From Planctomycetaceae bacterium (GTDB lineage Bacteria > Planctomycetota > Phycisphaerae > Phycisphaerales > SM1A02), in the NCBI GenBank assembly GCA_947490615.1, contig CANLHK010000003.1, positions 1 through 64,000 on the forward strand: a DNA stretch of 64,000 bases, in the 5' to 3' direction. Positions 40,926-45,790 of this stretch are shown here, one piece after another (the first letter of the stretch is position 1; each line of letters starts with the position of its first letter). The notes below the pieces were generated by a model. The model saw nothing but the letters and a program-made list of their open reading frames with translations, was not told the origin of the DNA and searched no databases. A program made the translations under genes and the position numbers.

Positions 40926-41961
40926 TCAGCCCTTGAGGCTCGCCATGTCGATCACGAATCGATACCGCACATCGCTCTTGAGCATGCGCTCGTAGGCGGT
41001 GTTGATCTCGGACATGCGAATGGTCTCGACCTCACAGGCAATCCCGTGCTTTCCGCAGAACTCAAGCATTTCTTGGGTCTCGGCGATGCCGCCGATGCAG
41101 GAGCCCGCGAGGTTCTTGCGCGGAAGGATCAGACTGAACGCTGCGACTTGCTGGGGATTGGGCGGCACGCCGACCATGCACATCGTGCCGTCGAGCTTGA
41201 CGAGCGCCATGAGAGCGTCGAGCGAATGGTCAGCCGACACGGTGTCAATGATGAGGTCGAACGACTTCGCGTGCTTCGCCATCGCGGCGGTGTCAGCTGA
41301 GATCACCACCTCGTGCGCGCCGAGGCGCAGCCCATCGGCGACCTTTCGTGACGAGGTCGTGAAGAGCACCGTGTGCCCGCGCGAACTTCACACCCATGTG
41401 CCCGAGTCCACCGAGTCCAACAATGCCGACCTTCTTGCCAGGCCCCGCGTTCCAATGCTTGAGCGGTGACCATGTCGTGATACCCGCACACAGCAGCGGA
41501 GCGGCCGCCGCGGGGTCGAGGTTGGCAGGCACCTTGAGCGTGTACGCCTCGTCGACGACGACCTTCTCCGAGTAGCCGCCATATGTCATGCCGCCGAGGT
41601 GCTTATCCTCGCCGTTGTAGGTAAAGATCGGTCCACCGAGGCAGTATTGCTCAAGACCTTGCGTGCAGTGGGCGCAGGTGCGGCACGAGTCGACAAGGCA
41701 TCCGACCGACGCAAGGTCGCCGACTTTGAACTTCGAAACCTTCGCACCAACCCGCGTCACCCGACCAAGGATTTCGTGACCTGGAACCACCGGGTATTGC
41801 GTGAACCCCCACTCATTGCGTGCGAAGTGCAGATCGCTGTGGCAGACGCCGCAGTAGAGGATGTCGATCTCGACATCACTCGCCGTTGGTTCACGACGCT
41901 CGATGGTGTGAGGGGCGAGAGTGGAGGTAGGAGACTGGGCTGCGTACGCGCGCGTTGACAT
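40926..41961 (-). pseudogene. Zinc-dependent alcohol dehydrogenase (YahK/cinnamyl-alcohol type), frameshifted
   Basis: Together two frames give a full MDR-family alcohol dehydrogenase. Frame one (41961 down to about 41380) has the catalytic-zinc GVCHSDLHFARNEW and GHEILGRV, the four structural-zinc cysteines in CRTCAHCTQGLEQYC, and the NAD(P) motif GLGGLGHMGVKFA. Frame two (about 41384 down to 40926) continues with VLFTTSSRKVADGLRLGA, VGVPPNPQQVAAFSLILPRK and the normal C-terminus. The switch falls at about 41371-41385 in a G/C-rich run, where one or a few bases appear lost. Elsewhere the sequence looks well kept, so a recent mutation or an assembly error are both possible. Expected role: reduction of aldehydes with NADPH. 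Confidence 0.85.
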
Positions 41962-42259
41962 GAGTGTGGCTCCGGAGAGGCGGAGAGTCTAGTGGGCTGT
42001 GCGGTGGAGCCGTCGCTAGAGAACCGCGGCACGCGGAAGATCGGTTGCGTGAGACACCACGGAACGCAGACAGAGCAGTAGGTATTCGCCTCGCATGTCG
42101 GTGGACTGGTCGCGCGTTCGGCGAGGACGCTTGACACACAGCGAACCCACAGTACAGTTCCGCCTCCTCATGGCTTTCGCCCGCGCATCTCTCGCCACCA
42201 CACCACGACATCGTGACTCGCGTCCGATGGGCGGTTTGGCGCGTTTCGTGCTGGTTTCC

Positions 42260-42334
42260 ATGCAGATGCCGATGCACATGCGATCTGGCATGGGCGCGCT
42301 GATGCCCATGCGCAGCCCGATCGCGGTTGCCTGA
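42260..42334 (+). CDS. Candidate Met-rich leader peptide
   Basis: A 24-residue ORF with seven methionines, four of them in the first seven residues (MQMPMHM) and three more at 11, 15 and 17. It ends 164 bp before a cystathionine synthase/lyase-type gene that is coupled to homoserine dehydrogenase, both methionine-pathway functions. A run of codons for the pathway's end product is the hallmark of attenuator leader peptides, such as the His, Thr or Leu leaders of enteric bacteria. There is no clear Shine-Dalgarno, and the frame is open upstream with ATGs at 42171 and 42228, so the true start is uncertain. A chance Met-rich frame or a small metal-binding peptide are alternatives. Confidence 0.4.
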   Translation: MQMPMHMRSGMGALMPMRSPIAVA

Positions 42335-42399
42335 CGGCGGATTGCTTCCTCGCACAACGCGAGCTTCCGACAACCAGTGCACCTTCGATCGGGCAAGTC

Positions 42400-42447
42400 C
42401 TGCGCGACGCTTCTGCGCGACGAATCTCGTCGCCGCGGTTGACGACG
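42400..42447 (+). promoter_or_regulatory. Competing hairpin arms between leader ORF and PLP-enzyme gene
   Basis: A 10-bp direct repeat (42400-42409 and 42413-42422) carries GCGACG twice. Either copy can pair with the single CGTCGC at 42428-42433; the second copy makes a perfect 7-bp stem (42417-42423 with 42427-42433). CGACG at 42443-42447 can also pair with CGTCG at 42428-42432. Such mutually exclusive pairings are expected of an attenuator, but no poly-T follows, so control by Rho or at translation would be needed. Confidence 0.3.
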
Positions 42448-42498
42448 CTTCCTCGAACGCATCACACCCAAACACCTCACGCTCAATTGGAGCTCGCT

Positions 42499-43701
42499 AT
42501 GACTCACTCTCGAAATCTCGCCACCACCTGCGTGCGCGCGGGCGGTCAGCCCGAAGCGCACAGCAACGCCCTCGTTCCATCGATCTGCACCTCGACCACC
42601 TTCGCGCAGGTCTCCCCGGGACAATCACCAACCTACTGCTACGGCCGCACGGGAAATCCCACGCGTTCGCGACTCGAAGAAGCGCTCGCTGAACTTGAAG
42701 GAGCGCGCTACGCGTCGACCTTCTCCAGTGGACTCGCCGCCGTCGACGCACTCATCCACACGCTCGACCAGGACGCGCACATCGTTGCGAGTCAGGATCT
42801 CTATGGCGGCTGCTATCGACAGTTCACCAAGCTGTGGAGTCGCTTTGGACTGCAAGTAACGTTCGTCGACGCCACCGATGTCGAAGCGGTGCGCAGTGCG
42901 TTCCAGCCCAACACGCGCTTACTCTGGCTGGAAACGCCGTCGAATCCGCTGCTTCGCATTACGCCCATCGCTGCGCTCTGCGCCTTGGCGCGCGAGCGTG
43001 GTGTGGCGAGCGTCGTCGACAACACCTTTGCGACGCCGATCCTGCAGCGTCCACTGGAGCTTGGCGCGGACATCGTTCTGCACAGCACCACCAAGTATGT
43101 GAGTGGTCACTGCGATGTCCTTGGTGGAGCCTTGGTGTGTGACGATCCGCAACTCGCCGAGCGCATTCGCTTCGTGCAGAACGCGGCGGGCGCGGTGCCG
43201 AGTCCTGCGGATGCGTCGTTGTTGCTTCGTGGAATTCGCACGCTGCATTTGCGCGTGGAACGACATTGCCAATCGGCGGCCTTCATCGCGTCAACACTCG
43301 AGAGTGAAGCGGAAGGCGTCGAGGTGATCTACCCAGGATTGCGGAGCCACCCGCACCATGAAGTCGCGCGCTCGCAGATGAGCGCGTTCGGTGGACTGGT
43401 GACGATTCGCATTCCTGGTGCCCGCGCGGAGGTCGATCGCTTCGCGCGCGCCACGCAGTTGTGGACGCTCGCCGAGAGTCTGGGCGGGTTCAAGAGTCTC
43501 TGGTGTCACCCGCCGACGATGACGCACGCGTCGGTCGACGCCGCGGAGCGTGAACGGATCGGGATCACCGAAGGAACGATTCGGCTCTCGGTTGGGCTTG
43601 AAGATGCTGGTGACCTTGCGACAGACTTGCTGGAAGCGATCGCAGCAATCGCAGCGACGCACTCGACTCCACGCGCAACTAACAAGGCGGTGCTCGCATG
43701 A
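42499..43701 (+). CDS. Cys/Met metabolism PLP-dependent enzyme (cystathionine gamma-synthase/lyase type)
   Basis: A 400-residue trans-sulfuration enzyme. PLP-binding Lys199 is in HSTTKYVSGHCDVLGG. The other family motifs are YGRTGNPTRSRLEEALAELE, FSSGLAAVDA, SQDLYGGCYR, LLWLETPSNPLLRI and VVDNTFATP. Whether it is MetB, MetC, a gamma-lyase or an O-acyl-homoserine sulfhydrylase cannot be decided from the sequence. Its coupling to homoserine dehydrogenase (ATGA overlap at 43698-43701) favours a biosynthetic role that makes cystathionine or homocysteine from activated homoserine. GGAG seven bases before the ATG at 42499 fixes the start. A Met-rich leader candidate lies upstream. Confidence 0.92.
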   Translation: MTHSRNLATTCVRAGGQPEAHSNALVPSICTSTTFAQVSPGQSPTYCYGRTGNPTRSRLEEALAELEGARYASTFSSGLAAVDALIHTLDQDAHIVASQDLYGGCYRQFTKLWSRFGLQVTFVDATDVEAVRSAFQPNTRLLWLETPSNPLLRITPIAALCALARERGVASVVDNTFATPILQRPLELGADIVLHSTTKYVSGHCDVLGGALVCDDPQLAERIRFVQNAAGAVPSPADASLLLRGIRTLHLRVERHCQSAAFIASTLESEAEGVEVIYPGLRSHPHHEVARSQMSAFGGLVTIRIPGARAEVDRFARATQLWTLAESLGGFKSLWCHPPTMTHASVDAAERERIGITEGTIRLSVGLEDAGDLATDLLEAIAAIAATHSTPRATNKAVLA

Positions 43702-44627
43702 CGCTCGCAGCTTCAACGACACCACCAATCATTTCAACGCCACCACGGACGACGCGCATCGCGCTCTTGGGTTGCGGCGGGATCGGTACCGCGCTCGCAC
43801 AGGCGCTGGCCGAACACGATGGCTATGAACTCACGGGCGCATTGGTGCGCAGCGTCGAAGGGCGCAAGCGGCCCGCGGCGGTTCCGCGACTGACCAATTC
43901 CTTTGACGAGATCCTCGCGCAACGCCCCGATGTTGTGGTCGAGTGTCTCGGCGGCATCGAGCCCGCTGCAAGCTGGTGTGAGCGACTTCTCGAAAGCGGC
44001 GTGAGTGTGGTGAGCGCCAACAAACTCATGGCCGCCGAGTCGCTGGATCGGCTTGCACGCGCTGCGTTGCGCGGCGGCGCGCAGATCCGTTTCGATGCGG
44101 CCGTCTGTGCGGGCGTTCCTGTGCTCGATGCGGTCGCGCGGCTGCGTTCTGCAGGAATCACTGCCGTGCGTGGCGTGGTGAACGGCACGACCCAATGGAT
44201 GCTCGATGAGGTCACGGAGCGCAAGGTCACCGTCGAGGCGGCGCTGTTCGAGGCGATTCGTCTTGGCTACGCCGAACCCGATCCAAGCGCGGATCTCTCG
44301 GGGCGTGACAGCGCCGACAAGTTGTCGTTGCTTTCCGCGGCGGCGGGATTTGGACTCGTGCCCATCGCTGCGATTGCGGTGGCGGGACTTGCCGACGCGC
44401 GTGGAAGTCTGATCAGCGACGACATCCTCGACTTCCAGCGTTGGGGCGCGTTACGACTCGTGGCAGAAGTCACGCGTGAGGAAGTGGGCGCGCCGATTTC
44501 TGCGTCGGTGACTCCCACGCTCGTCGCGCGCACCGACGCGCTGGATTCGATCCAGAGACGCGGCAAGCGTCTCGCTCTTGCCGTCGTAGAGCTGGATGTA
44601 GTCGCTCGCGGCAGAGCCTGTCTCTAG
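43698..44627 (+). pseudogene. hom: Homoserine dehydrogenase, 3' end replaced
   Basis: The first 280 or so codons are a clear homoserine dehydrogenase, which reduces aspartate semialdehyde to homoserine. It has the NAD(P) motif ALLGCGGIGTALAQAL (22-37), VSANKLMAA, VNGTTQWMLDEV and GYAEPDPSADLSGRDSADKL with the catalytic region. At PTLVARTDAL the family would continue for another 40 residues to its NAD-domain return helix. Instead, from about 44541, the frame runs into antisense sequence of an ardC-like gene and stops at 44627. The C-terminal helix and any ACT domain are missing. Unless an intact copy exists elsewhere, function is doubtful. It overlaps the upstream PLP-enzyme gene by four bases. 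Confidence 0.85.
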
Positions 44628-45302
44628 CCCGATAGCCTGGCAGACAACGAAAGCGACTGCTTCGGCTTCGGTCTCCCGCACGGTCTTGCTGGTGGGGCGC
44701 TGGTCACCACGATGCAGAAGCTCGTGGGCGAGTTCATGGACGATGACTGAGAACTCGTTGGCCGGCTCCAGGCCGGGCCGGATGCTGATCCGTCCGCCGC
44801 GTGAGACGCCGTCGGCTCCTGGCGGCAAGTCGTCGTAGTCGAGCTTGATGCCTCGCTCCGCGACCTGCTCTTTGATCTTGGTGAGGTGATGCTGAGGATC
44901 GCCACCGACTCGCGACGGCTCCGGGAGCTCTTGGCCGTCGGTCTGGGTCACGTCAAAGACGTACACGCCGCGGAATCGGAGGATGGGCTTGGCTCGGTCG
45001 GACTGCTCGGAACCCTCGGGCTTGTCTTCCTTCGGGCGGATGCTCATCGGGGCGATGATCACGATTCCCTTCTCGCCCTTCTTGACGAACCGGCCCATCT
45101 GCTTCCACGTGCCGAACCCGGCGACGTGGGTCGCCGCGGGCATCTGCGAGAGGATGAGGAGGACGTTCCCGAAGCTGTACCGGTGGAACTTGGCGAGCAT
45201 CGCGAGGTATTGCGTGATTTGCTCGCTCTTTCCGCTCTTGAGAGCGTCGGTGAGGTTCTGGAGGGCTTGGTCGGCGATCTTCTTGGCTTCTTCGGCTTTC
45301 AT
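44451..45302 (-). pseudogene. ArdC-like antirestriction/zincin protein, 3' end truncated
   Basis: Residues 1-254 match the ArdC/DUF1738 type found on plasmids and integrative elements. An N-terminal ssDNA-binding-like domain (KFHRYSFGNVLLILSQMP, GFGTWKQMGRFVKKGEKG) is followed by a metallopeptidase domain with HELAHELLHRG (189-199). RETEAEAVAFVVCQAIGLETG supplies the third ligand region, then YIQLYDGKSETLAASLDRIQ. After DRIQ at about 44545 the frame enters the reverse strand of homoserine dehydrogenase, adding about 30 foreign Arg-rich residues. The intact part ends where the family normally is almost complete, so activity may survive. ArdC proteins protect incoming DNA. No other mobility gene except a recombinase remnant is near. 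Confidence 0.8.
44541..44555. other. Junction between homoserine dehydrogenase and the element remnant
   Basis: CTGGATTCGATCCAG, a 6-bp inverted repeat around TCG, lies where the plus-strand homoserine dehydrogenase and the minus-strand ardC-like gene both lose family similarity. It is read in frame by both genes as their last native residues. Confidence 0.6.
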
Positions 45303-45540: not shown

Positions 45541-45735
45541 AAGGTGTTTGAACTCTCGCAAACACTGCAAAACACGTGGGTTTCTGCGGATTACGCCACG
45601 AAGCGGCGAATCCTCGAAATCGTCTGTTTGAACTGCACCCTCGATGGCGCAAGTGCCGTGTTTACAACGAGAAAGCCCTTCGATGTGCTCATCGAAGGGC
45701 TTTACTCTCAAACAAGTCGGGCTGGCGGGATTTGA
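45541..45735 (+). pseudogene. C-terminal remnant of a large serine recombinase
   Basis: About 64 codons resemble the extreme C-terminus of large serine site-specific recombinases, with FELSQTLQNTWVSADYATKR, RILEIVCLNCTLDGASAV and RKPFDVLIEGL in the family order. The frame is open back to 44983, but that upstream part is antisense to the ardC-like gene and bears no recombinase motif. The resolvase catalytic domain is missing. The stop lies inside the antisense strand of tRNA-Pro. The remnant marks this as the end of a former integrative element. Confidence 0.65.
45672..45703 (-). terminator. Terminator downstream of tRNA-Pro
   Basis: A perfect 14-bp stem (45672-45685 with 45690-45703) with a four-base loop; on the minus strand the stem ends in GGGCTTT followed by CTCG. 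It begins 14 bp past the tRNA-Pro 3' end. The same DNA codes for the last residues of the recombinase remnant on the plus strand. Confidence 0.65.
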
Positions 45736-45790
45736 ACCCACGACCTTTTGACCCCCAGTCAAACGCGCTACCAAACTGCGCTACAACCCG
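45717..45790 (-). tRNA. tRNA-Pro (anticodon GGG)
   Basis: The minus strand folds into a cloverleaf with acceptor CGGGTTG/CAGCCCG (one G-U pair), anticodon stem TTTGA/TCAAA and loop CTGGGGG, which gives anticodon GGG for CCC codons. The T loop is TTCAAAT. The 3' CCA is not encoded. A recombinase remnant abuts its 3' end. Confidence 0.95.

Follow-up and report, generated by a model that had tools for sequence, protein, structure and literature searches.

Within the 64,000-nucleotide stretch of DNA analysed here (termed the window), a Met-rich reading frame ahead of a metB-like gene and hom very probably represents a conserved Met leader peptide that is accompanied by a switchable RNA. Conserved between genera are the leader, its frame, an M-x-M motif and two covarying pairings of a single RNA arm (A:B and A:C); most leaders also share a promoter geometry, and in part of the clade an anti-Shine-Dalgarno (anti-SD) arm covaries with the metB Shine-Dalgarno (SD). 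The reading favoured here, which is considered probable for the group and less so for the window by itself, is that metB-hom would be controlled through ribosome-mediated attenuation in response to methionine shortage, with metB translation as the read-out.

The Met-rich frame at the center of this analysis comprises 24 codons, seven of which encode Met, with four of these falling within codons 1-7; as the original prediction held, it forms a short Met-rich frame ahead of metB, from whose ATG at 42499 it is separated by 164 nt. It is the single stretch in all six frames of the 64 kb with at least six Met in 18 stop-free codons (maximum 7), and thirty Markov-simulated 64-kb sequences contain no such stretch (maximum 5). 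The predicted extent of 24 codons, however, is the 3' portion of a frame that stays open further upstream, through in-frame ATGs at 42227, 42170 and 42095. The sole promoter-like site within 41900-42600 (shuffle mean 0.1) ends 11 nt ahead of the ATG at 42170, and, because the promoter points to this ATG, the leader probably starts there and thus probably is leaderless, with 54 codons and 9 Met counting the start. The original prediction had remarked on the lack of a clear SD; none is found, but with the start moved to 42170 a leaderless mode of initiation would explain a Met-rich frame without one. A transcription start downstream of 42334, which the original prediction had named as evidence against a leader, is made unlikely by the upstream promoter, although the start position is a predicted one. 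Coordinates of these and other features are given in Table 1.

Table 1. Features of the Met leader region and of the metB-hom operon within the window.
Feature	Coordinates	Strand	Basis or remark
Sigma-70-type promoter, TTGACA-16-TACAGT	42131..42158	+	sole promoter-like site in the scanned region
Leader ORF, 54 codons, probably leaderless	42170..42334	+	open frame, promoter position, 19 other Met-leader loci
Met-rich ORF MQMPMHMRSGMGALMPMRSPIAVA	42260 (ATG)..42334 (TGA)	+	read from sequence
Met cluster, ending in ATG-CCC-ATG (42302-42310), the conserved M-x-M	42260..42310	+	sequence, simulation, motif count
Local alternative hairpin inside the leader	42280..42324	+	sequence and coordinates; putative role
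Match to covariance model R1	42299..42356	+	E = 0.0015
Arm A core GCCCGATCG	42315..42323	+	complementarity, covariation tests
Small hairpin CTCGC-ACAAC-GCGAG	42349..42363	+	could hide the anti-SD arm; putative role
Anti-SD arm GCGAGCTTCC	42359..42368	+	pairs with SD, P = 0.014 versus shuffles
Arm C core CGATCGGGC, complementary to arm A	42386..42394	+	compensated relative to other genera
metB SD (GGAG 42489-42492) and flank, complementary to the anti-SD arm	42489..42497	+	
metB-like gene, Cys/Met metabolism PLP enzyme	42499..43701	+	Pfam PF01053, E 9.3e-130
hom, homoserine dehydrogenase, C-terminal end missing	43698..44627	+	PF00742 positions 3-138 of 173

A Met leader precedes members of the same metB clade at 19 loci besides that of the window, 18 of which belong to 12 other genera of the same phylum and one to the Acidobacteriota. 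Those ahead of metB include L002, L003, L004, L006 and L007 (all from one genus), L005, L008, L009, L135, L136 and L138, together with L139, L140, L141 and L148 from other classes of the phylum; L240-L242 were detected by covariance model R1 alone. The Acidobacteriota leader, L047, is on the named Thermoanaerobaculia contig JADGNZ010000071.1 and is the one Met leader identified by Met count among the best 80 of at least 598 matches in named genomes. In most relatives a promoter is similarly placed ahead of the leader, and 14 of 17 leaders have an in-frame ATG of the leader at a distance of 8-11 nt past the -10 element; in L003 and L004 the well-spaced ATG is the second of two in-frame ATGs. 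The corresponding distance is 7 nt in L138 if TTGACT is read as the -35 element (the script placed it elsewhere) and about 13-14 nt in L240 and L242, and neither L140 (17 nt) nor L141 (38 nt) has a close promoter-ATG spacing. L240 and L242 (genus g116) have a leader containing MAMRRPG and an anti-SD arm (in L242, GCTTCGTCC with GGACGAAGC), with C about 175-190 nt ahead of the assumed metB start.

The pattern ATG-NNN-ATG-N4-GCCCG occurs exactly once per locus, at the leader, in 20/20 fetched loci. Between the last two Met the codon differs among loci (TCC, GCC, ACC, GTC, GCG, GTG, ATC or CCC), an argument for selection acting on the Met codons themselves. Of 194 regions upstream of metB, a regular expression devised after the leaders were known, M.M[RPS][RSP]P, matches 27, each of them a leader locus or a duplicate fetch, and none of the other 167 (a count that omits loci L205 onward and ten loci with no anchor or too little upstream sequence). 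In a further 40 upstream regions of metB-family genes from the phylum there is no M-x-M motif and at most 3 Met per 14 codons, and none of 28 pattern matches in viral contigs is a relative. Judged by sequence signature, hom follows metB in all 17 loci with enough sequence (L240-L242 not included), as Pfam confirms for the window, L004, L009, L139 and L148. Within a tree of 53 metB proteins (from which L004 was left out and six non-leader rows without the anchor motif were skipped), 18 of 19 leader-bearing genes form part of one clade with support 100/93, and that of L148 falls just outside across weakly supported branches; the window and L138, which belong to the same family, group together on long branches. 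The leader label requires 2 changes on this tree versus 15.8 in shuffles, a kind of count that near-copies favour.

Arm A (GCCCG) directly follows the last Met, and its partner is either arm B, within the next ~30 nt, or arm C, further on. When the partners of 14 leaders (two of one genus) were compared with partners swapped between leaders, not one of 20000 permutations was as good as the true assignment for either A:C or A:B, and for SD:anti-SD P was 0.00025 over 14 leaders; a leader's own partner was the single best of 14 in 5 leaders for A:C, in 3 for A:B and in 3 for SD. Shuffles equalled the A:C duplex in at most 5 of 200 cases in 14 of 17 leaders, with weaker duplexes in the window (16/200), L047 (23/200) and L140 (132/200). 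Across the A:C core (L140 and L141 left out), 95.8% of cells are paired, a value reached in 1 of 500 shuffles over 9 distinct cores. One pair of this core appears as GC, GU, UA or AU and the next as GC, AU or GU, and two pairs are changed on both sides, a number equalled in 76 of 500 shuffles; the window's GCCCGATCG / CGATCGGGC constitutes one compensated version. RNAalifold, applied to a plain sequence alignment, assigned almost no covariation credit (-0.15) because the distant arms misalign, and the own-versus-swapped tests were therefore used.

Mutually exclusive covarying pairings characterize the group, and the window has A:C without a strong downstream B arm (-12.1 kcal/mol versus -13.7 to -35.7 in other leaders). 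Instead, a local hairpin inside its leader may substitute for the A:B hairpin of the relatives; here GCGATC (42280-42285) pairs with GATCGC (42319-42324), and GCATGGGC (42288-42295) with GCCCATGC (42304-42311). Alternative hairpins had been predicted within the gap; the conserved switch is A:B versus A:C. A predicted 10-bp direct repeat is likewise present (CTGCGCGACG at 42400-42409 and 42413-42422) but gives no sign of a role in the element.

Pairing between the anti-SD arm and the SD reaches P ≤ 0.02 against shuffles in 7 of 13 clade representatives, namely the window (0.014), L006 and L005 (0.002), L009 and L242 (0.004), L008 (0.008) and L135 (0.020), and is not significant in the other six (L138, L136, L139, L141, L148 and L047); Fisher's method gives 1.7e-7 over all 13 (L140 had no C core). 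Within L005, L006, L009, L135 and L242 the anti-SD arm overlaps the C arm, so that A:C and SD occlusion are mutually exclusive there. The anti-SD arm of the window is situated between A and C and ends, without overlap, 17 nt before the C core, so that the two pairings would cross. A scan of 41900-42600 yields no terminator-like site, in line with the earlier view that classical termination is not evident, and the likely read-out would be occlusion of the metB SD rather than termination.

The leader is also recognized by covariance model R1, which was built from 12 relatives with the window left out: its match there is the only one with E ≤ 0.5 in the window's 3.26-Mb genome (G000; best 150 of 3248 candidates scored). 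At E ≤ 0.003 the model matched 10 of 392 genomes of the phylum, 7 of them at metB leaders, and at E ≤ 0.002 it matched 10 of 397 genomes of the class, 9 of them at metB leaders, three of which were new. These two samples overlap, and stricter filters, with 13 candidates scored per genome, were applied to them, so that divergent leaders can be missed; going by these results, a detectable copy is absent from most genomes of the phylum. Judged by eye, 18 extra R1 matches in 12 genomes (besides 12 leaders) and the matches in G715, G751, G148 and G368 correspond to no such Met leader. A search of the 397 class genomes with a 21-mer of arm A (at most 2 mismatches), which misses the window's own arm, matched 14 genomes: known leaders in G024, G039, G043 and G047 (no mismatch) and in G327 (2 mismatches), and nine others that, again by eye, lie in different reading frames and have no Met run. 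At gathering scores Rfam reports two tRNAs over the whole window and no family at the leader; at E ≤ 5 it reports three weak unrelated matches on nine loci, with no SAM riboswitch, T-box or other leader family; and the SAM-I riboswitch model has no match across the whole genome.

The metB-like and hom genes are coupled as predicted, with the metB stop (43701) overlapping the hom ATG (43698). Among the 25 NCBIfam models listed, the one nearest to the metB-like product is a cystathionine gamma-synthase model, and none of the 25 attains its cut-off. The Homoserine_dh domain of hom stops early and is whole in relatives; the 3' end of the gene overlaps an ArdC-like ORF on the opposite strand (44451-45302), and a tRNA is located nearby at 45717-45790 (-). 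The truncation site is possibly a mobile-element junction or a sequence error. Divergent from the leader, a zinc alcohol dehydrogenase gene at 40926-41961 (-) is broken into two frames (41293-41961 and 40926-41369), reflecting a frameshift or sequence error. The original prediction had proposed that relatives be searched for a conserved in-frame Met cluster with covarying hairpins; both are found in other genera, and the same-genus genomes searched (G001-G015, 15 in all, some incomplete) contain no ortholog of the window's metB. Long metB matches within the genus are at most 48% identical versus 55-59% for eight orthologs from other genera, and the metB-hom pair and its leader may have been acquired by transfer, or may have disappeared from the same-genus relatives.

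From a mechanistic perspective, transcription would start at about the leader AUG, so that ribosomes would load straight onto the leader. When charged Met-tRNA is scarce, ribosomes would stall within the Met run, at whose end M-x-M lies, and a ribosome stalled there would cover the 5' foot of the local hairpin (A:B, or in the window perhaps 42280-42324). With A:B blocked, arm A would pair with the distant arm C, and A:C would compete with pairing of the anti-SD arm (beside C) to the metB SD, thereby allowing translation of metB and hom. When Met is sufficient, ribosomes would run through, the local hairpin would re-form and the anti-SD arm would mask the SD. Here we infer the stalling itself, the direction of the response and, for the window, a read-out in translation rather than termination.

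Folding models in which a ribosome is placed at defined codons bear upon this order of events. A masked ribosome at the penultimate Met leaves A:C as the dominant pairing in 12 of 13 leaders, L047 being the exception; with no ribosome, A:B dominates in six of 13 and A:C in seven, including the window. A:B stays ahead in L005, L006 and L141 when the ribosome sits at the last Met, and a ribosome at the stop codon yields A:C in L003, L139 and L148; both results weaken a simple on/off picture. Placing a ribosome at Met codons lowers the SD opening energy in L002, L004, L006, L007, L136 and L047 and slightly in L148, hardly alters it in L003, L008, L135, L138 and the window (6.1-6.9 with a ribosome at a Met, 6.6 without), has mixed effects in L005, L009, L139 and L141 and raises it in L140; in many leaders it also goes up when arm A is covered. 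SD pairing with a ribosome at the penultimate Met rises slightly in L005, L141 and L047 and stays at 0.60 in the window. Equilibrium folding with 9 nt of metB is a poor proxy for folding during transcription; as modelled in this way, the proposed order of events is supported in some relatives, and the outcome for the window is neutral.

The closest alternative retains the leader and its sensing of Met but replaces the read-out by premature termination (intrinsic or Rho-dependent), C and a downstream arm D forming a terminator when A:B forms. Classical amino-acid attenuators act by premature transcription termination, and candidate structures exist: arm C forms GTCCGG...CCGGAC with a U-containing tail in L002, L003, L004, L006 and L007, a terminator-like 9-bp hairpin followed by TTTTCCC occurs in L135, and weaker or other hairpins with T-rich tails occur in L139, L148, L240 and L242. 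The tails in the five genomes are, however, interrupted (e.g., CGCGTTGTGCTTTT), no terminator-like site is found in the window or in L005, L008, L009, L047, L136, L138, L140 and L141 by a scan that allows no bulges, and SD:anti-SD pairing covaries; termination is accordingly regarded as unlikely, if the strongest of the alternatives. More doubtful is that the nascent chain would stall the ribosome through M-x-M-[R/P/S]-[R/S]-P, with Met or SAM as the possible signal instead of empty Met codons, much as plant cystathionine gamma-synthase mRNA undergoes SAM-dependent nascent-chain arrest. Residues past the last Met are conserved across distant genomes (RRPG, PSPG, SSPG, RSPG), but this can be attributed to arm A, which the same codons encode: the window and L138 have lost the Gly (SPI, SPV) but maintain the RNA pairing by compensation. 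The variable codon between the last two Met also argues against a role of the chain.

It is very improbable that the leader is a small Met-rich protein acting in trans (e.g., in metal binding) and unrelated to metB control. Although 54 amino acids could be read in the window, and the leader peptide peTrpL acts in trans according to PMC7298713, the peptides (21-54 aa) have little in common beyond the Met run and the segment covering the RNA arm, and all loci found sit before metB. Least credible of all is a chance Met cluster in GC-rich intergenic DNA: the absence of this metB from the 15 same-genus genomes searched leaves no close comparison, but conservation is found in other genera (in the motif, the metB clade and the R1 match), and the Met density is unmatched in the six frames and the simulations. 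Starvation-dependent attenuation of metB-hom remains the preferred reading, and a broader version of it can tentatively be envisaged: an old and hitherto undescribed family of leaderless Met leaders (M-x-M-[RPS]-[RS]-P) that has accompanied one metB-hom clade across several classes of the window's phylum, and into or from the Acidobacteriota, and that controls translation of the operon, possibly combining the sensing of Met-codon starvation with a nascent-chain component.

Known regulators of methionine pathways include SAM riboswitches, T-boxes and repressors, for example MetJ. Attenuators with a Met leader peptide have hardly been reported, perhaps because AUG doubles as the start codon; one earlier proposal was found (in Streptomyces, before metNIQ), and none for the window's phylum in the open-access literature searched. 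The comparative case is strong enough for direct testing, in phyla with poorly understood gene regulation, and the leaderless start together with possible SD occlusion suggests how attenuators can work without a terminator.

Like the trpL, hisL, leuL, thrL and ilvL attenuators, the element described here places a short ORF, enriched in the amino acid that the pathway makes, between the promoter and the operon and has mutually exclusive pairings positioned for choice by a stalled ribosome. Unlike in them, the amino acid is Met, the leader is probably leaderless and the window has no intrinsic terminator, and in part of its clade an anti-SD arm pairs with the first gene. In ermC-type systems, stalling of a leader ribosome frees the SD of the downstream gene, as is proposed here, but control occurs without amino-acid specificity; translational attenuators of this type are named in PMC2965389. 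The metL leader of Streptomyces lividans, which precedes metNIQ, is described in PMC8079986 as a proposed leaderless Met leader peptide for which termination is unclear, and in both respects, Met and leaderless, it resembles the leader here. It precedes a Met importer, however, and its peptide MSTTSDRTPATEATTTPGARCMCRRMCAF (the comparison being by peptide) has three Met including the start and no M-x-M-[RPS]-[RS]-P. The SAM-I riboswitch of the Xanthomonas campestris met operon acts, according to PMC7270179, mainly on translation via an anti-SD and responds in addition to uncharged initiator tRNA; it differs in using a metabolite aptamer and direct tRNA binding, and the term 'leader peptide' is absent from the text of that paper. 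The Sinorhizobium meliloti trpL transcript, according to PMC7298713, is leaderless in that it begins at the ATG of the leader ORF, as is probable in the window, but it precedes a Trp operon, and both its peptide and its RNA also act in trans.
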